From Nitrospirota bacterium (lineage in GTDB: Bacteria > Nitrospirota > Thermodesulfovibrionia > UBA6902): DNA of 38,955 nt. Each line of letters begins with the position of its first letter. Within the stretch, counting starts at the first letter, position 1. The stretch spans positions 1-38,955 of the forward strand of contig JACQZF010000061.1 in assembly GCA_016213945.1 (NCBI GenBank), read 5' to 3'. This document shows positions 3,202-15,530 of this stretch, piece by piece. Position numbers and translations under genes: made by a program. The notes beneath the pieces are model-generated. The model saw only the letters and a list, made by a program, of their open reading frames with translations, was not told the DNA's origin and made no database searches.

Positions 3202-3942
3202 TTAATTTTGTTCTCTCGTTAAAAGCGATGCTACGCCTTTATCAAGAACGAATATAAGTTTCCCGCTTTTCGGTTTCACCATTGCAGCGGGCAACGAGCT
3301 GTTCTCATCTTTAATTACCTCTCTCACAAATTCAGCCTTGTCTGCGCCGTTTACGAAAAACATTACATTCTCAGCATTATTGAGTAGAGGGAATGTCATT
3401 GTAACTCTTTCATATCTCATTGCCGCGCCTGTTAATGGTACCGGCACAACGAGCCGCTTTTTCTCGCTGACAGCAGAAGTCCCCTGAAACAGAGACGCAG
3501 TATGTCCGTCCATGCCTATTCCGAGGACAATCAGGTCAAAGCGCGGCAGCGTGGTGAAGAACGAAATTAAATCCTCCTCATATTTTTCTGCGGAAGCCTG
3601 CATGGAGACTTCTTCCGTCAATATCGGATGCAGGTTTACTTCAGGAATGTTAACGCGCCTGAGCAGCGTCTCAGTTATCATGCGATAGTTATTCCAGTCG
3701 CTTTCATACGGGACAAACCGTTCGTCAACCATAAAGATGTGCGTCTGGTCCCATTTCAATTCTTTTGCGGCAGATAGCTTTTCATATAAAAGCACGGGAG
3801 ACCTGCCGCCTGAAAGCGCAACAGTAAAATACCCTCTTTCATCAATTGCCCCTTGAGAGATCTCTTCCCACTTTTCAATGGCGAATTCAGCCATCGCTTC
3901 ATTGTCCTTGAAAACAAGGACCTCCCTTACCATATCCGCCAT
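3202..3942 (-). CDS. pgl: 6-phosphogluconolactonase
   Basis: This enzyme hydrolyses 6-phosphogluconolactone to 6-phosphogluconate, the step after glucose-6-phosphate dehydrogenase. The 246-residue protein (the family is usually 230-260) has the DevB/SOL motifs GGRSPVLLYEKL, MVDERFVP and LGIGMDGHTASLF. The start overlaps the end of zwf by 16 bp, so the two are translationally coupled; a second possible start is the Met at residue 4. The gene for 6-phosphogluconate dehydrogenase is not in the window. Confidence 0.94.
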   Translation of the reverse strand: MADMVREVLVFKDNEAMAEFAIEKWEEISQGAIDERGYFTVALSGGRSPVLLYEKLSAAKELKWDQTHIFMVDERFVPYESDWNNYRMITETLLRRVNIPEVNLHPILTEEVSMQASAEKYEEDLISFFTTLPRFDLIVLGIGMDGHTASLFQGTSAVSEKKRLVVPVPLTGAAMRYERVTMTFPLLNNAENVMFFVNGADKAEFVREVIKDENSSLPAAMVKPKSGKLIFVLDKGVASLLTREQN

Positions 3943-5465
3943 TGCCTGCCTTCGCTTCTGAGCAGGTCATCGGCCTTTTCAGGCCCCCATGACCCTGCGG
4001 AATAGTTGGGAAACTCAGGCGCAGGGGTTTCTTCCCATCTCCTTATTATCGGGTCCACTACGGCCCACATCGCCTCAACGCCGTCCTGACGCGCAAAAAG
4101 GGTCTGGTCTCCCTTCATACAGTCGATCAGCAGGCGTTCATAAGGCAGGGGAAAATGGACATTGCCCTGAAAATCACGTTCATAATTGAAGTCCATACTG
4201 ACCGGATAAAGCTGGTTGCCGATGCCCGGATGTTTTACACCGAAATTCAGGGTTATTTTTTCATGGGGCTGAACCCCAAGCACAAGGACATTGGGCTCGG
4301 ATATTTCACATACGGCGCTGAAAAGCTTCAGGGGCGGCTGTTTGAAATGTATGCTGATCTCAGTTATGCGTTTTTTTAAACGTTTTCCGGTCCGAAGGTA
4401 AAAAGGGACCCCCGCCCAACGCCAGTTGTCTATGTGAAACTTGCCCGCAAAGTACGTCGGGGTGTTTGAATCACGCGCAACATCTTTTTCTTCGTGGTAG
4501 GCCGGGACCTTTTGCCTGTGTATCACCCCGCCTCCGTACTGGCCGCGTACGGTGAACCTGTCGATGTATTCATTGTCCATCTGGCGTACAGTGCGGTACA
4601 CCTTTGCCTTCTCATCGCGAATATAATCCGCTTCAAAACCTATCGGAGGCTCCATCGCAACCAGCGACAGGATCTGCATCATATGGTTTTGCACGATGTC
4701 TCTGATGACGCCTGCTTTCTCGTAAAACCGCGCCCGGTTCTCAATGCCGATTGCTTCTGCTACTGTAATCTGCACGTGGTCAATATAGCGCCTGTTCCAC
4801 AGCGGCTCAAAGATGCTGTTGGCAAAGCGGAAGAACATTATGTTCTGCACGGTCTCTTTGCCGAGATAATGGTCAATGCGGTAGATCTGGTTTTCGTCAA
4901 AGGCCCTGCCGATGAGTCTGTTCAACTCGATGGCGGAGGCCCTGTCACTGCCGAAAGGCTTCTCAACAATAAGCCGCGTGCTGAACACGCCTTTGCAGAG
5001 CTTGCAGATTGACAGCCTGTCAATTATCCCCGGCATGGACTGCTGGGGCACGGCCATATAATAAATAATTTCTCTTGTGCCTTTGTCCGTAGTCTTTGTT
5101 ATTTCTTCAAGCCGCAGGGAAAGTCTCCTGTAACTGTCTTCATCCTCAAAGCCCCCGGAGAGGTAAAAGATATGCCTGCTGAAATTTTCCCAGCATCCCC
5201 AGTCGATGGCTTCTTCGCTGTTTTCTTCGATGGCCCTTTTGACGAATTCGCGGTATTCATCGTCTGAGCGGGGGCTGGACGCGAACCCGATTATCGAGAA
5301 CTCTTCCGGCAGGTGCTGGTCTTTACAAAGGTGATACAGTGTCGGCAGAAGCTTTCTCCTGCTTAAATCCCCTGTGCCGCCGAATATCACCATCGTAAAC
5401 GGCTGGATTTTGGCCTTCTCAGTTAATATCTCACAGAACTGTATGTTGTAAAAATCTGTTCCCAT
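3927..5465 (-). CDS. zwf: Glucose-6-phosphate 1-dehydrogenase
   Basis: Zwf oxidises glucose 6-phosphate to 6-phosphogluconolactone with NADP (or NAD) reduction. The 512-residue protein is normal length. The dinucleotide-binding motif GGTGDLSRRKLLP lies near residues 29-41, the substrate-binding motif RIDHYLGKE in the middle, and FYEKAGVIRDIVQNH after it. The ribosome-binding site is weak (GAGAG). It is the first gene of zwf-pgl. The 112 bp upstream hold no clear promoter. Reading frames on the plus strand within this gene are antisense shadows. Confidence 0.96.
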   Translation of the reverse strand: MGTDFYNIQFCEILTEKAKIQPFTMVIFGGTGDLSRRKLLPTLYHLCKDQHLPEEFSIIGFASSPRSDDEYREFVKRAIEENSEEAIDWGCWENFSRHIFYLSGGFEDEDSYRRLSLRLEEITKTTDKGTREIIYYMAVPQQSMPGIIDRLSICKLCKGVFSTRLIVEKPFGSDRASAIELNRLIGRAFDENQIYRIDHYLGKETVQNIMFFRFANSIFEPLWNRRYIDHVQITVAEAIGIENRARFYEKAGVIRDIVQNHMMQILSLVAMEPPIGFEADYIRDEKAKVYRTVRQMDNEYIDRFTVRGQYGGGVIHRQKVPAYHEEKDVARDSNTPTYFAGKFHIDNWRWAGVPFYLRTGKRLKKRITEISIHFKQPPLKLFSAVCEISEPNVLVLGVQPHEKITLNFGVKHPGIGNQLYPVSMDFNYERDFQGNVHFPLPYERLLIDCMKGDQTLFARQDGVEAMWAVVDPIIRRWEETPAPEFPNYSAGSWGPEKADDLLRSEGRQWRIW

Positions 5466-5577
5466 TTAGCACTCTCAGCTATCAAGACCTGTTCACATTG
5501 AAGAGTTGATATTGTATATCAAATTTATAACATATATTTTGCCGCTTGCAAATTAAAACTTGATTAATGCACGCAAT

Positions 5578-7380
5578 TCAGCGTGGCAGATAAACTGTAA
5601 CGACCGGATTGAAGCTGAATATCTCCATTGTAGTGTCAAACACCTTTGCCTTTTTATGGCCCTTTATTTTTTCCTCTATGTTCTCCGGTAGCGTCTGCAC
5701 AATCCCGTTTGAAATAATAACCACCGGTGAATGCAACCCCTCTTTAATTCCCCCCTTGCCAAGGGGGGACACAGGGGGTTCTTCATAATACCTCGGATTC
5801 CCGTACTCCCACGTAAACCTTAGCGCGGATTCTCTTATCTGTTCAAAGGGCAAAGTAAAACTCGCGTCATGATGATATGTAATTTCTTTGTCCGTAAACA
5901 TATCAAGAATGGGGACTGAGACCGCGATATTGACGATTGTATCTGGCGCGGGGATCGTAAAGACCTCTATCCTGTCAGCATCAATTGAGTTTAAAAACTC
6001 TCCCGCTTCATTTATGTTCACCAGGTTCATCTTTTGCAGAAACGGCAGGTAAGCCGTGATTGCAACAGTAAGAGAAGCAGCCACTATGCAAAAGACGGCG
6101 AACCTTCTGATCTGGATGGTTTTGATCTTCTGTAAACCATATGAAGCCATCAGCGTCAACATCGGAAAGGCCACCATGATATAGCGCGCCCTCCTTATTT
6201 GCAGAAGGACAATCAAAAACAGCAGCCAGCAAACAATGACAAACTTTAAATCCCTTTTCCGCAGGGCCTCATAGATGGAATACACTGCCGCAAGTGTAAT
6301 GAACGGATGGACCTGAAATAAAAAGGTCGAGACAAAGCTCTCCCCCCATCTTCTTAATCCCGGTGTCTGATATTCCCGGAGGAATTTTATCTGTTCAAAT
6401 ATGACATCGTATTTGATCCAGACCATAATGGCAATGAGTAACCCAGCAATGAAGACAACTGTTATCCCGCGATAAATACCCCCCCCAACCCTCCCCTTAT
6501 CTAAGGGGATGAGCAAGGAGGGGCGAGCCAAACAAACCACAAATATTACCGGCAATACCGAAAGCATCACCCACGTCGAATACTTGGAGAAAACGGCGCA
6601 GAATATGGCAATGGATGAAGCCGTGACCCATATCCCGCCTTTGCTCAGGGCGTTAATGAACGTAAAGATCGAGAGCATTAGAAAAAACATCGTAGGCACA
6701 TCAACGAGCATAAGAGGTATCTGAGGAAAGAAATACGGGACCCCAAGGAGCAATAGTCCGGCAAGGGACCCCGTCTCCTCATCCCAGAGTTTTTTCCCGG
6801 TGAGATACGTGAGCACAACGGTCATTGAGAACAAAAAAGTTGTGAAGGCCTGAATGTATATCCTTGTTTCCCCGAAGGACCTGAAGATCAGCCCGTAGAA
6901 AAATGACATGAGCGGCAGGTCCGTCCATGCGTTGATCCCCCTGCCCCATTCACTGAAGAAATATTTTATTCCGTACAGTTCGAGATGCTTGGCCTGGGTG
7001 AAATACCTCGAAGCATCCACCAAAAGCTCCGGCTCGCCCCAAAAGACCGCGCTCACTGCAAACGAAAGAAGAAAGAGGAGTCCCACTTTGTAAAAGGGGG
7101 ATGCAGGGGGATTCTCAGATGATAACCGTGACAGGAAATACGTAACTGTAATCCCGCAGATCAGGACAACAACAAACCGGACCAAATCCACATCTGCAAA
7201 AGCCCACTGCCAGCTTGTCAGCCTGTTGTCGTCAAAGGCGCGGTATGCGTATTGAACAAAAAATATTGATAATGTCAGGAGCGCTATGAGGATGGAGGCG
7301 AATAGATCTTTGCGCGGGTTAACTCCACCCAACCTCCCCTTATCTAAGGGGAGGAGCAAGGAGGGGTTATCTTTTGGCAT
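5578..7380 (-). CDS. GT-C family membrane glycosyltransferase with in-frame repeat insertions
   Basis: The 600-residue protein has about ten to twelve hydrophobic segments and an acidic first-loop region (PELLVDASRYFTQA, then LYG), which fits the PMT/ArnT-like GT-C superfamily that moves sugars from polyprenyl-phosphate carriers on the outer side of the inner membrane. A soluble C-terminal part follows from about residue 450. The acceptor is unknown. Four stretches (residues 5-20, 90-100, 286-301 and 533-549) are translated copies of a palindromic repeat and probably form loops between helices. The first lies at the very N-terminus, so the ancestral start may have been elsewhere. It is not in an evident operon. 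Confidence 0.85.
   Translation of the reverse strand: MPKDNPSLLLPLDKGRLGGVNPRKDLFASILIALLTLSIFFVQYAYRAFDDNRLTSWQWAFADVDLVRFVVVLICGITVTYFLSRLSSENPPASPFYKVGLLFLLSFAVSAVFWGEPELLVDASRYFTQAKHLELYGIKYFFSEWGRGINAWTDLPLMSFFYGLIFRSFGETRIYIQAFTTFLFSMTVVLTYLTGKKLWDEETGSLAGLLLLGVPYFFPQIPLMLVDVPTMFFLMLSIFTFINALSKGGIWVTASSIAIFCAVFSKYSTWVMLSVLPVIFVVCLARPSLLIPLDKGRVGGGIYRGITVVFIAGLLIAIMVWIKYDVIFEQIKFLREYQTPGLRRWGESFVSTFLFQVHPFITLAAVYSIYEALRKRDLKFVIVCWLLFLIVLLQIRRARYIMVAFPMLTLMASYGLQKIKTIQIRRFAVFCIVAASLTVAITAYLPFLQKMNLVNINEAGEFLNSIDADRIEVFTIPAPDTIVNIAVSVPILDMFTDKEITYHHDASFTLPFEQIRESALRFTWEYGNPRYYEEPPVSPLGKGGIKEGLHSPVVIISNGIVQTLPENIEEKIKGHKKAKVFDTTMEIFSFNPVVTVYLPR
5734..5784 (-). repeat. Palindromic coding repeat in glycosyltransferase, copy 4
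   Basis: The coding strand reads CCCCCTTGGCAAGGGGGG around a central palindrome, translated PPVSPLGKGGIKEG at residues 535-548. It has the same reading frame and orientation as the other copies. Confidence 0.8.
6478..6525 (-). repeat. Palindromic coding repeat in glycosyltransferase, copy 3
   Basis: It is translated RPSLLIPLDKGRVGGG at residues 286-301, between two hydrophobic segments. The core is CCCCTTAGATAAGGGG on the coding strand. It is nearly identical to the N-terminal copy. Confidence 0.85.
7081..7113 (-). repeat. Palindromic coding repeat in glycosyltransferase, degenerate copy 2
   Basis: It is translated NPPASPFYKVG at residues 90-100. The coding strand has CCCCCTTTTACAAAGTGGG, a decayed form of the palindrome. 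It lies in a loop between hydrophobic segments. Confidence 0.6.
7321..7368 (-). repeat. Palindromic coding repeat in glycosyltransferase, copy 1
   Basis: It is translated NPSLLLPLDKGRLGGV at residues 5-20, directly after the start codon. The coding-strand core is CCCCTTAGATAAGGGG. A GCAAAGGGCA-type repeat abuts the start codon on the other side. Confidence 0.85.
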
Positions 7381-9207: not shown

Positions 9208-9942
9208 TTAAACAATCACTACAGAGTCCTTGGAGCCTTCATTATTGCGGACAAACCTGTCTGCATGCCAGTCATTCTCCCAGCGCTGACCGTCGATAAG
9301 ATATTTGAATCTGTATCTTCTTTTGCAAAACAGTTCCATTGTTATGACAAAGTCTCCGTTTTCAAGCCTGGTCATGGGGGACATTGAAGCATCCCAGTTA
9401 TTAAACTCACCTACAAGCGCGACATTCTGTGAATTCTTTGCCATCTCCTTCAGAAGCCTGAATGTGACCTTACACTTTTTGCCGTCCTCGTTATACTGTT
9501 TTATAAAGCCCAATTTATTCGGCAGCAGTAAAGTTTTCCTGCTTTTCTTTTCGGTGTCCTTATGGATTTTATATTCCCAGTCAAAGTTGTACATATCGAT
9601 CTCCGGGACATTCGAGGCGGAGAATATCTTTGCCAGCGCTGCTTCCTGAACAGCCTTATCTTTCATCCTGAATTTAACTCCCGCCGAACATTTTTTCCCG
9701 TCCTGGTTCTTCCATAAAACATCGCCGGACAGGGAAACGGAGTTTCCTTTGCCCGGAAGGCCGACGAGCAGCTCCAGGTTTTCGTACATGATGAACTTGA
9801 AATCATCCGCATCCAGGCCGAGGCCTTCGCATGAAATATTTGTCGTTACCCCGGTGGCATAATCCGTGGCGCCGTATGTGGGCCTGAATATTACCCCGAG
9901 CTGCATGTCAAATCTCCTGAACTTTCTTTTGGTCTCTGGCAT
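9208..9942 (-). CDS. PilZ domain fused to an AMPK-type glycogen-binding domain
   Basis: Residues 1-115 are a PilZ domain with both c-di-GMP signature elements: RxxxR (R6-R10 in RKFRR) and NxSxxG (N35, S37, G40 in NISCEG). About residues 155-244 match the AMPK/CBM48 early-set carbohydrate-binding fold, with VGEFNNWD and YRFKYLIDGQRW. There is no catalytic domain and no signal peptide, so it is a cytoplasmic protein that may bind c-di-GMP at one end and a glucan at the other. The ribosome-binding site is GAGGAAAG. It stands alone, with no glycogen genes nearby. Confidence 0.85.
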   Translation of the reverse strand: MPETKRKFRRFDMQLGVIFRPTYGATDYATGVTTNISCEGLGLDADDFKFIMYENLELLVGLPGKGNSVSLSGDVLWKNQDGKKCSAGVKFRMKDKAVQEAALAKIFSASNVPEIDMYNFDWEYKIHKDTEKKSRKTLLLPNKLGFIKQYNEDGKKCKVTFRLLKEMAKNSQNVALVGEFNNWDASMSPMTRLENGDFVITMELFCKRRYRFKYLIDGQRWENDWHADRFVRNNEGSKDSVVIV

Positions 9943-10017
9943 CTTTCCTCGTGCGTACTATTTTATGTATTTGGCGTGGTGAAATAAAGAGGGAAATGAC
10001 GTTCAGAAGAAAAATTT

Positions 10018-10461
10018 TCAGATCGTCTGTATATATTCGTTGACCTCTGATTTGACCCGTGCCGCTACGTCTTTTGTTGCGTCGGACAGCGCCTTCATGT
10101 TTTCCCATTTAATAGTGAAGACGTAGTTGTAAATAAAATAATTTCTAAAGGACAGATAGCCGGTCAATATCTGGAAAAGATCCGGCGGCAGGATGCCGAT
10201 CTCGCTGGATTTCCTTAGCACCTTTTCATGCCATTCAGGGGAATCCTGCACGTCAAGTTTGTCAAAAAGCAGCATCTGCTTTAAGATCTTTTCAATGCCG
10301 CTGTATATATTTACTATAAAGGTCGCTATTGCCGCCTGCTCTGAAAACGTATACTCGGCTTTTTCCGGTGAGTAAACAGAAAAAAGTTCGCCGACAACCC
10401 TGTCTATGTTTGCGAATTCCTGCTCAAGGTATTTCTGAAGTTCCTCTATTGTCATGCTCAT
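10018..10461 (-). CDS. HepT-like alpha-helical protein
   Basis: This 147-residue protein is predicted to be all helical and contains LTGYLSFRNYFIYNYVF, which resembles the region of HepT-like RNases that carries the R-x4-6-H active site (here RNYFIYNY, with no histidine). No MNT/HepB nucleotidyltransferase antitoxin gene is next to it. The replaced histidine argues against the usual RNase activity. The ribosome-binding site (GGGAGGTAA) is good. Assignment is by pattern only. Confidence 0.5.
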   Translation of the reverse strand: MSMTIEELQKYLEQEFANIDRVVGELFSVYSPEKAEYTFSEQAAIATFIVNIYSGIEKILKQMLLFDKLDVQDSPEWHEKVLRKSSEIGILPPDLFQILTGYLSFRNYFIYNYVFTIKWENMKALSDATKDVAARVKSEVNEYIQTI

Positions 10462-10486
10462 TACCTCCCTGTCTTGAGAATTATAC

Positions 10487-10515
10487 CCTATGCTCTTTGC
10501 CCTCTGCTTCTCACA
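10487..10515. repeat. GCAAAGGGCA-type degenerate repeat
   Basis: The plus strand reads CCTATGCTCTTTGCCCTCTGC. Related stretches occur at about 7381-7394, 9135-9156, 17073-17102 and 22122-22155, always at gene edges. This one runs into the aarF stop. Confidence 0.6.
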
Positions 10516-12223
10516 GCCTCCCTGATTTTATAATAGATATCAGCAGCCTTATTCCAAGCAGAAAGGCCACTAAAAATCCTATGGCCCCGATTGTCGGCAG
10601 GCCGAAGATCCTGCCGCCGATATCCATATTGGATTGTATCAGCATTGACGAACCTACTATGATGGCTGCGACAATTATGCTGAATGCAAGACGGTTGCTT
10701 GAGCGGTCAATGTCACGTATCAATTTATCCATCCCTACAGGGTTGATATTAATGCTTACCTCATCCCGGAGAGATTTCCTCAACAGCCTGTTTATCTGTT
10801 TAGGCGTATCAAACAGCAGCCGCCAAACGTCCGACAAATTATCTTTTGCCTTCTCAAAGATGCTCTCGGGGCTCAGGCGTTTTTTTATCAGCTTTGCCGC
10901 GTAAGGGGCCGCGTAAGTAATGGCATTGAAACCGGGATCAAGCTGCCTGCCTATATTATCGAGGACCATTATGGTTTTGTTTATCAGCATCAATTCCGAA
11001 GGCACCCTGAGTCCATGTTTTATGACGAGGTGAGTAAACAGCTCCAGATATTCCGGGAAATTCACTTCAGAGATCGTGAGGTCATAAAGGGGCTCAACGA
11101 TATCAACGAGGTCTCTCTTCAGCGCCCTCTTGAATTCATCGAGGTCCACATCACCTGCCACCAGCCCCATGTCAATATATATATCAATGAGGTCGTCAAA
11201 CTTCCTGTTATAAAGCGCAAGGAACGCTCCGGCGATATTCTCCATCATGTCCGGTGTAAGCCGCCCGACTATTCCAAAATCCATAAGCCCTATCTTGCTG
11301 TCCTGCATTACAAAGATGTTACCGGGATGCGGGTCTGCGTGAAAAAACCCGTCTTCAAATATCATCTTGAAGTAGGCTGCAACACCTTTGCGGGCCAGTT
11401 CCAGCCTGTCAATACCGAGCGCGTCAATCCCCGGCAGATCGTCTATCCTCACGCCTTCAAACCTTTCCATTACGATCACTTTCTCGGATGACAGATGGGA
11501 GTAAATCGTGGGGATGCAAATATCCGTGTCTTCCGCAAAGTTTCTTTTGAATCTCTGCGCGTTTTTCGCCTCGGCAAAAAAATCCAGCTCCTTTTTAACT
11601 GTCTTTGAAAACTCGTTCACTATCCCCTCGGGATCAAAAAGCCTGCTTTCAGGGATATATTTGATCATGAGGCGCGCAATGGCATTCAGGATTGTCACGT
11701 CATTATCTATGATCTCGCTGATGTCAGGCCTCTGCACCTTGATGATCACTTTCTCGCCGGTCTTAAGGACTGCGTAATGGACCTGCGCGATGGAGGCGGC
11801 TGCAATCGGGGTCTCTTCAAAGTCCAGAAACACGTCATTGAGAGAAATATTGAGTTCAGACTCTATGATCTGGATCGCCTTTTCCGGGGCAAACGGGGGG
11901 ACCTTGTCCTGGAGCTTTTTAAATTCATCCGCGTATTCTGTTGTTATGAGGTCCGGCCTGGAGGAAAGGATCTGCGCCAGTTTTATAAATGAAGGGCCTA
12001 ATTCGCTGAAGGCCATCCTCAGTCTTTCAGGGATGGTGTGCTTCTCAAGTTTTTCCCATCGCCTCAGGATCTTTAATTTTATGCTCAGGGGGAAAAACCG
12101 CTGGAGATTTACCTGCTCAATAAACTGCCCGAACCCGTGCCTGAGGAAAACATTGACTATATGCCTTATGCGTTTTATATTTTTATACGTCTGCCAGTAT
12201 CTGAGAAGTTTTGTTATTGGCAT
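10511..12223 (-). CDS. ABC1/AarF/UbiB-type protein kinase-like protein
   Basis: Members of this family are atypical kinases or ATPases linked to isoprenoid quinone synthesis. The 570-residue protein has the family motifs: KLAQ at 81-84 (usually KxGQ, so Gly is replaced by Ala), the alanine-rich loop AAASIAQVH at 141-149, the lysine of IKVQRP at 162, HADPHPGN at 295-302 and DFG at 315-317. Two hydrophobic segments end the protein, so it is membrane anchored. Menaquinone genes mqnE and mqnC are 21 kb away in this window, and UbiB's ubiquinone role may not apply. Start is an ATG with a weak ribosome-binding site. Confidence 0.92.
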   Translation of the reverse strand: MPITKLLRYWQTYKNIKRIRHIVNVFLRHGFGQFIEQVNLQRFFPLSIKLKILRRWEKLEKHTIPERLRMAFSELGPSFIKLAQILSSRPDLITTEYADEFKKLQDKVPPFAPEKAIQIIESELNISLNDVFLDFEETPIAAASIAQVHYAVLKTGEKVIIKVQRPDISEIIDNDVTILNAIARLMIKYIPESRLFDPEGIVNEFSKTVKKELDFFAEAKNAQRFKRNFAEDTDICIPTIYSHLSSEKVIVMERFEGVRIDDLPGIDALGIDRLELARKGVAAYFKMIFEDGFFHADPHPGNIFVMQDSKIGLMDFGIVGRLTPDMMENIAGAFLALYNRKFDDLIDIYIDMGLVAGDVDLDEFKRALKRDLVDIVEPLYDLTISEVNFPEYLELFTHLVIKHGLRVPSELMLINKTIMVLDNIGRQLDPGFNAITYAAPYAAKLIKKRLSPESIFEKAKDNLSDVWRLLFDTPKQINRLLRKSLRDEVSININPVGMDKLIRDIDRSSNRLAFSIIVAAIIVGSSMLIQSNMDIGGRIFGLPTIGAIGFLVAFLLGIRLLISIIKSGRL

Positions 12224-12285: not shown

Positions 12286-12381
12286 TTATAACGCCTTTCT
12301 TTTTTTAATTATACCCTCAATATCAGCCTTTGTCGCTATCATGAACTTGTACTTCTCATCCAGTCCGCCCCGTTTGTTCAA
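12286..12381 (-). CDS. Possible 31-residue ORF overlapping the restriction-enzyme stop
   Basis: A TTG codon at 12381-12379 overlaps the stop of the upstream restriction gene and opens 31 residues (starting NKRGGLDEKYKF after the TTG, ending IIKKRKAL). GAAGGAAG lies just upstream as a possible ribosome-binding site. The overlap and protein-like composition are the only support. It may be a small partner, the remnant of a larger gene, or chance. Confidence 0.25.
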   Translation of the reverse strand: MNKRGGLDEKYKFMIATKADIEGIIKKRKAL

Positions 12382-15300
12382 ACAACTTCCTTCTCAACTT
12401 CCGGGTAAATCTTATCGATTGCCTGCTGTATCTCAATCGTTTTTTGCAAAACTGTTACAACCCTGCAGTAATGTTTTATGTCTTCAAGAGATAATGTTTT
12501 CCCTTTCCTGTCTTTCAGCCATTTTTCACAAACCTGATAACCGCCGATATGGTATTCCCATACTTCGGGCTTAACATTCTCAAAATACTTATCATTGTTT
12601 ATAAATATTTTTCCATCCTCATATCTCGGTTTTTCGACCTTATTATTTCCCTCGCCCTGAAATTTTGCAATTGGTTTATCAAACTCTGGTGATTTGAGCA
12701 AGTGCAAAGCTACAAGCTTCTCACCATGCACTCCCATTTTCTTGAACAGCTTGTAATCTTTTGTAAAAGGTATTCGCGGAAAATCAATCTTTAAAAACTC
12801 AGCATACTTTGTGCGGTAAATATTAGAGTAGAGTACAGCATAAATGTAATAGAAGACCTCTTCTGGAAATGGCTCCTTCTTGTAGATTGACGATAGACTT
12901 TTCAAAAGAGATTCAGAAATATTTGGTCTTCTAATCTTATAAGGCGTCTCCGGCTCAAATAGCATCAAAACACTACTTAAGGACTTACTCCTTTTAGGTT
13001 TATTTTTGTCGATATAAAGATAAAGGGGGAAAAGATATGAACGCTCTCTGGTCTCTAAAGATACTGTACAGTCATTCGTGATTTTATCAGAACAAAGCGC
13101 ATGTCTGAACTCTCCATTCACCTGACGATTAGCAATTAATCCCAAATTATCTTGAAGCATATTCTGCATTACTTCTTTTCGCGAACGTTCAATGACTGAA
13201 TCATGATAGAAAATCCACTGCTCATCAAAAGGGCGATACAGGATTTTTGTTATTGTCTGTTCCCATTCATCATCATTCGTTACACTTTCTCTGGCGTCTT
13301 TAAGTTTCCAATTGGACTTATCTTTCAAGCCATAAGTCTGCTGGATTATTTCGTCAGGCAGTTTTTTGTCTCGGAACTGCAATATCCTTCTTCTCAATGT
13401 ACTTTTATCAGAGTCAAGTACAAAATTGTCTCTTGATGTGACTATTCCCACGCTGTTTACCGGGAAAATATCGGTAATTTTAGGATAGGTTTGATATTGC
13501 GACAAAAGTCTTTCATCTCTTGGAATAAAAAGATAGAATTCGGATTTTGGGGTTATCTTTTTCCATTTGGTTGTTATTAAATCGTTTATATTGAGCCAGG
13601 CGTATTTATCTTCTCTGGTCCCCCATAATTCAGAATGCGAGATTGTTTTCTTCAGCCCCTTCTTCTTAATGAATAATGCAATTGCCACTCCCTGCTGAAT
13701 GTCAAAAACATTCTCATCTTTTGAGCCGTCAGGACATTTTTCTTTTTTAAGGCTGTTACCGTGAAGATCAAGCAGGTAAATCTCGTCAAAACTCTGCATA
13801 AGCGACTGCCGCATTCCCCTGAACGTCGGGTTATCAAGATAGCTGTGGTTAGTAATAAAGCCCAGAACACCTTCCCCCACCTGATCAATTTTCCATTGTG
13901 CAAAACGTATGAACTTCACATAGTCATCCTGAAGCCACTTTGGATTTTTCTCACCGAGCGGTTTACCGTCTACTTGAAAGTATGCCTTTATTTCTTTGGT
14001 TATCCAGTCTCCGATATTGGTTGAATGCCCTGAATACGGCGGATTGCCGAGGATGGCGAGAATAGGTTTTTCCTTTTTCACTTTGCCTGCCAGATGTGAT
14101 TCTTCTGAAAGAGACGCCATACCGGGCAGAGACGTTTGCTCAAGTTCATCCATCTCAAGGGTGTTTGTGAGATAAAGTTTAAATCTGTCATCCTTCTGTA
14201 ACTTGTATCCGAGTTCTTCAAGAAGAAAAGACATTTTTAAATGTCCGACTGCATACGGCGCCATCATCAATTCAAATGCGTAAAAGTTTTTGAGGATGTG
14301 GGTCTTAATAAAGTCTTTTTTGCCGCCATCTCCATACCTGGAGATAAATTCTTCCACTGCAAGATTGCTTGTCTCAGCAAGAAAAGTGAGCGTCCCTGCC
14401 GCTGGGTCTAATACAGTAACAGAATCTGATGCAAAGCCGTCCTTCTTCCCGAAATATTCTTTCAGGATTATATTTAAAGAACGAACGATATAAGAGACTA
14501 CTGGCTCAGGCGTATAATAGACTCCGCGTTTCTCCCTTTCCTTCGGGTCGTATTCCGTGAGGAATGTCTCATAGAAATGAATGATCGGGTCGCTGCCTCT
14601 GCCTTCATGATAAAACTTATGGAGCGTCTGTTTTACATCAGCCACTGAGAGGACTTCGGATATGTCGTCAACGATCCACTCCATCTGAGGAGGCAGATCT
14701 TCAAGGGATATGAACTTGAAGACATCTCTTAATATCCCGATCGTCCTCGGTATGTAGTCAAATGCAAGCTTCCTGTTAAAACCGTTTTCAGCGCGTGTCC
14801 TTGCCGCAAAAAGACCATAGGTTATTGTCTGGCTGTACAGGTCAGCAAAATCTTCTTTTGAAAGTCCGTGAATGAGATACTTTTGAAACGCCTCATAAAA
14901 TCCGAGGATAAATCCTTTTCCTTTTCTCTCTTCTTCCTTCAGCTCCTCAATGATGACCTGCTCTTTTAAAAACCTGGTCCTCTTTGCAAGCTCAACTGCG
15001 AGAGTCTTTGCCGTATATGTTTTCGGCAGAGAGAAAGAAAAATATTGTTCAAGGAGATCAAAAAATTCCTGCTCTTTTTCAACAGGCGGGATTGTGCCGA
15101 GTTTTTGTATTAAAAACGGTCTGGCGATCTGAACACTGTCAATCATTCGACCATCCCGGTACAGTCTGAATTCGAAGAAGTTGGTCAATATTAAATTAGG
15201 GAAGGTATGCAGATAGCGCTTTAACTGGTCAGTGTCTTCTATCTGATCCAAGTGTTTGACCCCCCTCAATCCCCCCTTATCAAGGGGGGAAGTAAAGGGG

Positions 15301-15530
15301 GGTGTCTTGGCCTCGATGTATCCGACTATATGCTGTTTACCGTCCCATATCCTGAAATCCGGGTTCCCGGCATCAGTCTTTTGAGGGATGGTCGTAACAT
15401 GCACTTTCTTCTTGTTTATTGATTCAGCGTAATTCTGAAAAAGCCCTACGATGCAGGAGTAGTAACTTGATTCTGTTGCGTCCCCCCGCTTGCTGACCTC
15501 AAAGATATTTTTTAAATACGCTTTTAGCAT
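12378..15530 (-). CDS. Single-polypeptide restriction-modification enzyme (N6-adenine methylase plus nuclease)
   Basis: One 1050-residue chain combines DNA cleavage and adenine methylation, as in type IIG/ISP-like enzymes. A PD-(D/E)xK nuclease lies at the N-terminus (NPDF at 56-59 and EAK at 73-75). The methylase has the SAM motif DPAAGTLTF (375-383; usually DPACGTGTF) and the catalytic NPPY (496-499). The C-terminal half should be target recognition (YRPFDEQWIFYH, then LGLIANRQV). There is no helicase domain, unlike long type ISP enzymes. A palindromic repeat adds about 17 residues right after the nuclease EAK (76-92), which may affect cleavage. There is no separate specificity or methylase gene. 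The start lacks a good ribosome-binding site. Confidence 0.88.
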   Translation of the reverse strand: MLKAYLKNIFEVSKRGDATESSYYSCIVGLFQNYAESINKKKVHVTTIPQKTDAGNPDFRIWDGKQHIVGYIEAKTPPFTSPLDKGGLRGVKHLDQIEDTDQLKRYLHTFPNLILTNFFEFRLYRDGRMIDSVQIARPFLIQKLGTIPPVEKEQEFFDLLEQYFSFSLPKTYTAKTLAVELAKRTRFLKEQVIIEELKEEERKGKGFILGFYEAFQKYLIHGLSKEDFADLYSQTITYGLFAARTRAENGFNRKLAFDYIPRTIGILRDVFKFISLEDLPPQMEWIVDDISEVLSVADVKQTLHKFYHEGRGSDPIIHFYETFLTEYDPKEREKRGVYYTPEPVVSYIVRSLNIILKEYFGKKDGFASDSVTVLDPAAGTLTFLAETSNLAVEEFISRYGDGGKKDFIKTHILKNFYAFELMMAPYAVGHLKMSFLLEELGYKLQKDDRFKLYLTNTLEMDELEQTSLPGMASLSEESHLAGKVKKEKPILAILGNPPYSGHSTNIGDWITKEIKAYFQVDGKPLGEKNPKWLQDDYVKFIRFAQWKIDQVGEGVLGFITNHSYLDNPTFRGMRQSLMQSFDEIYLLDLHGNSLKKEKCPDGSKDENVFDIQQGVAIALFIKKKGLKKTISHSELWGTREDKYAWLNINDLITTKWKKITPKSEFYLFIPRDERLLSQYQTYPKITDIFPVNSVGIVTSRDNFVLDSDKSTLRRRILQFRDKKLPDEIIQQTYGLKDKSNWKLKDARESVTNDDEWEQTITKILYRPFDEQWIFYHDSVIERSRKEVMQNMLQDNLGLIANRQVNGEFRHALCSDKITNDCTVSLETRERSYLFPLYLYIDKNKPKRSKSLSSVLMLFEPETPYKIRRPNISESLLKSLSSIYKKEPFPEEVFYYIYAVLYSNIYRTKYAEFLKIDFPRIPFTKDYKLFKKMGVHGEKLVALHLLKSPEFDKPIAKFQGEGNNKVEKPRYEDGKIFINNDKYFENVKPEVWEYHIGGYQVCEKWLKDRKGKTLSLEDIKHYCRVVTVLQKTIEIQQAIDKIYPEVEKEVV
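15255..15305 (-). repeat. Palindromic coding repeat in the restriction enzyme
   Basis: It is translated TPPFTSPLDKGGLRGV, residues 76-91. The coding-strand core is CCCCCCTTGATAAGGGGGG. It has the same frame and orientation as the copies in the glycosyltransferase. Confidence 0.88.

Follow-up and report, generated by a model that had tools for sequence, protein, structure and literature searches.

A conserved PilZ-CBM48 fusion protein in an uncultured Nitrospirota lineage and its possible role in linking c-di-GMP to glycogen

The PilZ proteins YcgR, MotI (DgrA) and VCA0042 carry a second domain that is YcgR_N/PilZN-like and lies N-terminal to PilZ. One direct link from c-di-GMP to glycogen is described in the literature that was searched. 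The GlgX glycogen debranching enzyme of Streptomyces venezuelae is a CBM_48 protein that is activated by c-di-GMP, and its c-di-GMP pocket is formed by its own residues between two subunits at the dimer interface, without PilZ (PMC9530166). The glycogen-binding domain of AMPK beta binds glycogen markedly less when W100, K126 or W133 is mutated (PMC2642990). The plant protein PTST (PROTEIN TARGETING TO STARCH) loses starch binding when the two corresponding tryptophans are mutated together (PMC4339375).

The window, which is the whole stretch of 38,955 nucleotides that was analysed, is contig C48 of the draft genome G000 (3.5 Mb, 98% complete). It carries a complete open reading frame on the minus strand with ATG at 9942 and stop at 9208-9210, and the plus-strand reading of the same interval contains internal stops. 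The gene and its features are as follows.

9208..9942, minus strand: PilZ-CBM48 fusion gene of 244 aa plus stop (open reading frame, Pfam, conserved fusion)
9943..9950, minus strand: Shine-Dalgarno-like GAGGA(AAG), found by inspection, where GAGGA ends three bases before the fusion ATG
9637..9930, minus strand: predicted PilZ domain, residues 5-102 (Pfam PF07238, fold match to 5vx6, 4i86 and 2rde)
9913..9927, minus strand: RxxxR motif, R6-K-F-R-R10 (R6 and R10 invariant in all fused proteins)
9823..9840, minus strand: [D/N]xSxxG motif, N35-I-S-C-E-G40 (conservation among 33 homologues)
9517..9555, minus strand: predicted flexible inter-domain linker, residues 130-142 (pLDDT below 50, variable length and sequence)
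9211..9510, minus strand: predicted CBM48/AMPK1_CBM-type E-set domain, residues 145-244 (Pfam PF02922 and PF16561, fold match to GlgB, SEX4 and SNF1 beta)
9391..9405, minus strand: FNNWD, residues 180-184 (GEFNNWD is 178-184), with W183 aligned to AMPK-beta W100
9280..9306, minus strand: K213-YLI-DGQR-W221, with K213 aligned to AMPK-beta K126 and W221 to W133

The curated Pfam cut-offs were passed by PilZ (PF07238; 32.7 bits against 22.5, E 9.8e-8), CBM_48 (PF02922; residues 165-220, 31.9 bits against 22.4, E 1.7e-7), and AMPK1_CBM (PF16561; residues 169-236, 29.3 bits against 26.8, E 9.8e-7). No other Pfam match was found in the 244 residues. The NCBIfam matches of the fusion protein were all below threshold and came chiefly from the PilZ paralog domain (TIGR02266, 24.3 bits against a cut-off of 68.7, which places the protein outside that family) and the N-terminal part of GlgB. 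Neither a signal peptide nor a membrane segment was evident by eye, which fits the cytoplasmic location proposed in the preliminary description.

The AlphaFold2 model of the fusion protein, built from a 30-sequence alignment, has a mean pLDDT of 85.6, and most blocks of both domains are near or over 90. The pTM of 0.50 leaves the relative orientation of the PilZ and CBM48 domains undefined. The protein is thus modelled as two folded domains with a flexible tether between them. Foldseek against the PDB matched the PilZ half to MotI/DgrA (5vx6), the PilZ domain of BcsA (4i86), and VCA0042 with c-di-GMP (2rde), with E values from 4e-5 to 3e-4. The CBM half was matched to CBM48 structures, namely GlgB, the starch phosphatase SEX4 (4pyh), and SNF1 beta (2qlv). 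A profile search of PDB sequences with the fusion protein returned the same PilZ and CBM48 classes. The preliminary description had placed a PilZ and a glycogen-binding domain in one protein with intact motifs. Both points agree with the Pfam and AlphaFold2/Foldseek results and with the presence of RKFRR (6-10), NISCEG (35-40), FNNWD, and DGQRW (217-221), the last with a spacing one residue longer than the DG-W of AMPK.

The fused protein was found in many genomes of f1, the family to which G000 belongs, and in two genomes of the sister family f5 among 101 genomes searched, and 34 distinct fused genes were collected. The fused homologues are 40-93% identical, are free of internal stops, and in some cases lie in single-contig genomes. 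A genome carries up to three fused paralogues (two or three in G015, G034, and G013). A phylum-wide sample of 296 genomes contained no full-length match outside the f1/f5 group; there the halves match separately only, and most often it is the CBM half that matches as a stand-alone protein. A genome scan with the PilZ pattern of the close subset gave 18 loci, 16 of which are labelled as Nitrospirota-type bins and one as Deferribacteres. Those relatives that have names are uncultured bins of groundwater or the subsurface, and almost every one is labelled Nitrospirota/Thermodesulfovibrionia (UBA6902, BMS3Abin06, DeMMO bins, and others). The plasmid search returned CBM-like matches only, covering 36-40% of the fusion protein.

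Both halves of the fusion are under purifying selection. Over six pairs (Nei-Gojobori), the whole gene has dN/dS values of 0.08-0.22. The PilZ half alone gives 0.07-0.23 and the CBM half 0.02-0.18, where the lowest value (0.02) belongs to one close pair with few changes. A fusion by chance or by an assembly join was considered and is ruled out because 34 stop-free fused genes exist, some of them in single-contig genomes, and dN/dS is well below 1. The fusion is real and conserved, and it is probably functional. The CBM-half tree was built from a short alignment of 104 columns, and most of its forks are open. It grouped 32 of the 34 fused sequences, weakly supported, and left the f5 genes L021 and L022 unplaced in the free search. 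Constraining all fused rows together gave a higher likelihood than the free tree and was not rejected (p-AU 0.81). Multiple independent fusions are not needed to explain this tree.

The residues expected to contact c-di-GMP are kept. The preliminary description had singled out loss of the RxxxR or NxSxxG residues in close homologues as the finding that would speak against it. A comparison of 33 homologues with the window protein did not bear this out: R6, R10, and G40 never vary, position 35 carries N or D throughout, and position 37 is S in 30 of the 33. These residues bear on the alternative that the PilZ half is a structural domain only that does not bind c-di-GMP. Not every PilZ domain does so, and PilZ itself, which is without key DxSxxG residues, does not bind it (PMC12564702). 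However, the conservation of both motifs argues against this alternative, as do the GGDEF genes that adjoin four fused genes, and we regard it as very improbable.

Of the 34 fused genes, 4 have such a GGDEF gene no more than 600 bp away, against a background of about 9-37 GGDEF matches per f1-family genome. The GGDEF genes of L021, L022, and L032, which have three different sensor architectures, lie immediately upstream in the same orientation, whereas that of L108 is downstream on the opposite strand. The neighbours at L033 and L047 had been taken for cyclases by clustering; they were rejected as histidine kinases and so left out of the count. Separate CBM and PilZ genes also lie together in some genomes. 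In G012, G010, and G030, PilZ genes follow a neighbouring CBM gene in the same orientation, and in G040 the two genes adjoin convergently. The PilZ genes after the CBM gene in G012, G010, and G030 are the equivalent of a tandem pair in the window genome, the first member of which is the closest non-fused relative there of the fused PilZ half. In the window genome this pair follows an HDOD-like gene (L101, G000:C49:9000-18000, 3398-5524). The GGDEF and CBM/PilZ adjacencies were noticed during the work and had not been predicted, hence they are suggestive only.

The glucan-contact positions of AMPK beta were placed on the fusion protein by profile alignment (W183 for W100, K213 for K126, and W221 for W133). 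W183 is invariant in fused and stand-alone proteins, K or R is found at 213 in 29 of 33 homologues, and W at 221 in 30 of 33. The stand-alone CBM proteins keep all three equivalents in 38 of 38 cases. Three orthologues from the genus g2 have S37C, K/R213S, and W221R all together. Such a joint loss would be expected if the PilZ and CBM sites serve a single function, but since the three orthologues form one lineage, the data show no more than a single event. With G236 as a guide, the equivalents of AMPK-beta L146 and T148 were assigned by eye to E235 and S237. The L146 position is aromatic in most homologues, and the glutamate there in the window protein would be a small mark against full equivalence with AMPK beta.

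E-set domains are often protein-binding modules. The CBM48-like half could accordingly be a protein-interaction domain that no longer needs glucan, and the whole protein an ordinary PilZ effector whose protein partner might be, for example, a YcgR/MotI-like target or part of the redox cluster that houses the stand-alone CBM. MotI/DgrA is among the best structure matches of the PilZ half, and no glycogen gene lies beside any of the fused genes examined. The stand-alone CBM subfamily, which is about 50% identical to the fused CBM half and has a paralogue in G000, points in the same direction. This paralogue, the closest among the stand-alone ones (L031, G000:C71:9000-22000, 6564-6965, about 133 aa) sits in a cluster with two rubrerythrin-like proteins, a small DsrE/TusE-like protein, a cytochrome c, a DUF255/DsbH thioredoxin-like protein, and a 2-oxoacid:acceptor oxidoreductase, where the names other than DUF255 were assigned by reading the sequences. 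The cluster recurs in L102, L103, L113, L114, L116, and L150-L152 and is conserved in the genus of the window. No glycogen gene was found in this cluster, so the CBM subfamily may not concern glycogen. On the other side, the conserved positions are the known glucan-contact tryptophan and lysine residues, in every stand-alone protein and in nearly all fused ones. A domain without a glucan role is expected to lose these contacts, thus their conservation counts against a purely protein-binding domain. We consider that explanation unlikely, but it deserves serious weight.

Other CBM proteins were also observed in G000. An apparent ECF sigma factor gene is followed by an anti-sigma-like protein with CBM_48/AMPK1_CBM (L100, G000:C18:28000-39000, 4929-6545), and a lipoprotein-like CBM protein precedes this pair. 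The f29 family of the phylum again has paired CBM proteins, of about 230 and 135 aa, that resemble those of L100. For the stand-alone CBM subfamily, the public name "isoamylase early set domain-containing protein" was found on a weaker plasmid match.

The genome G000 encodes two GlgB proteins, whose best scores are 990 and 978 bits, together with a full-length GlgP at 1128 bits. A GlgC-like protein narrowly misses its cut-off (415 bits against 425). It also contains 23 GGDEF matches and 21 PilZ matches. The machinery for a glucan store and that for c-di-GMP signalling are thus both encoded. A divergent 577-aa GT5 glycosyltransferase in the same genome is GlgA-like and scores far below the GlgA cut-offs (L097, G000:C34:33000-43000, 4126-5859). 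The canonical GlgA is apparently absent from the g1 genomes, which keep GlgB, GlgP, and the GlgC-like gene. A link from c-di-GMP to alpha-glucan is plausible from the encoded proteins, given that the glucan-contact residues are kept and that GlgB, GlgP, GlgC-like, and GlgA-like genes are present.

The presence of the glycogen pathway beside extensive c-di-GMP machinery would also suit a glucan sensor that is not a regulator of glycogen. Soluble maltodextrin or glycogen on the CBM would then tune the answer of PilZ to c-di-GMP, with outputs such as the flagellar motor or pili. AMPK beta is a precedent for an allosteric glycogen sensor (PMC2642990), since glycogen inhibits AMPK through this subunit. 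However, no motility or pilus gene was recognised beside the window fusion, and Pfam found no YcgR_N/PilZN domain before PilZ, which begins at residue 5. We judge such a sensor to be quite improbable.

The preliminary description had proposed a search for the architecture and its neighbours in other genomes. The architecture recurs in the 34 fused genes, but no conserved operon surrounds them and their neighbours differ between relatives. A HepT-like protein and an ABC1/UbiB-like atypical kinase lie directly upstream of the window fusion on the same strand (10018-12223), an arrangement common only to the closest relative (L041). Also on the minus strand, a 1050-aa protein with N6_Mtase and a Type ISP C-terminal specificity domain (12378-15530) is a Type ISP restriction-modification enzyme, apparently shorter than the described ones.

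The reading that we favour, while placing it somewhat below an even chance, is that the fusion protein acts as a soluble, non-enzymatic adaptor that binds alpha-glucan in response to c-di-GMP. The PilZ domain would bind c-di-GMP through RxxxR and NxSxxG, and the CBM48 domain would use W183, K213, and W221 to bind alpha-1,4/1,6-glucan, most probably glycogen of the cell itself. When c-di-GMP binds, the RxxxR segment may become ordered against the beta-barrel, which would alter the surface that the protein exposes. Either glucan binding would then be gated by c-di-GMP, or the glycogen-bound adaptor would recruit a partner or let it go, be it a glycogen enzyme or some other PilZ target. The two domains would be coupled through the tether or through the partner, and stored carbohydrate would thereby be tied to the sessile or motile state controlled by c-di-GMP. 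The analysis establishes the two domains, their fold class, the conserved motifs, purifying selection, and the spread of the fusion with its paralogues across the family; the two ligands, the way they are coupled, the partner, and whether control is positive or negative are inferred.

No description of a PilZ and CBM48/glycogen-binding pair was found in the open-licence full-text literature, preprints excluded. The preliminary description had known of no described system that pairs c-di-GMP with glycogen or another glucan. In the literature searched, this holds for the PilZ-CBM48 form but not for c-di-GMP control of glycogen, which is known from GlgX (PMC9530166). The proteins may represent a new effector class, tentatively a two-ligand non-enzymatic PilZ-CBM48 adaptor that couples c-di-GMP physically to glycogen and occurs as paralogues in one uncultured Nitrospirota lineage. 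If so, a receptor with a glycogen-binding output would be a second, enzyme-free route from c-di-GMP to glycogen, and it would give a function to a widespread and unexplained bacterial family of stand-alone CBM48 proteins. Such a receptor would further suggest a way in which Nitrospirota of groundwater and the subsurface, represented here by metagenome bins only, connect their carbon stores with attachment or motility. A single soluble protein of 244 aa would permit a two-ligand test.

By profile, motifs, and fold, the protein is assigned to PilZ and CBM48, and it is neither GlgX nor YcgR. It shares with GlgX a CBM_48 domain and the predicted pairing of c-di-GMP with glycogen. However, GlgX is a GH13 enzyme, whereas the fusion protein has PilZ and, according to Pfam over its 244 aa, no GH13 catalytic domain. 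YcgR, MotI (DgrA), and VCA0042 are similar in having PilZ with RxxxR and [D/N]xSxxG together with a second domain, and the fold matches 5vx6 and 2rde belong to this group. Unlike in those proteins, the second domain of the fusion is a CBM48 E-set domain that comes after PilZ. The glycogen-binding domain of AMPK beta and SNF1 beta has the same CBM48-type fold and the W100, K126, and W133 that have equivalents here (PMC2642990), but it belongs to a eukaryotic kinase regulatory subunit without PilZ. The stand-alone family named "isoamylase early set domain-containing protein" represents the same CBM subfamily as the fused half, also without PilZ. The effector module of PTST is a coiled coil that delivers GBSS and is not a second-messenger receptor, yet PTST resembles the fusion in being a non-enzymatic protein whose C-terminal CBM48 anchors an effector module to alpha-glucan (PMC4339375).
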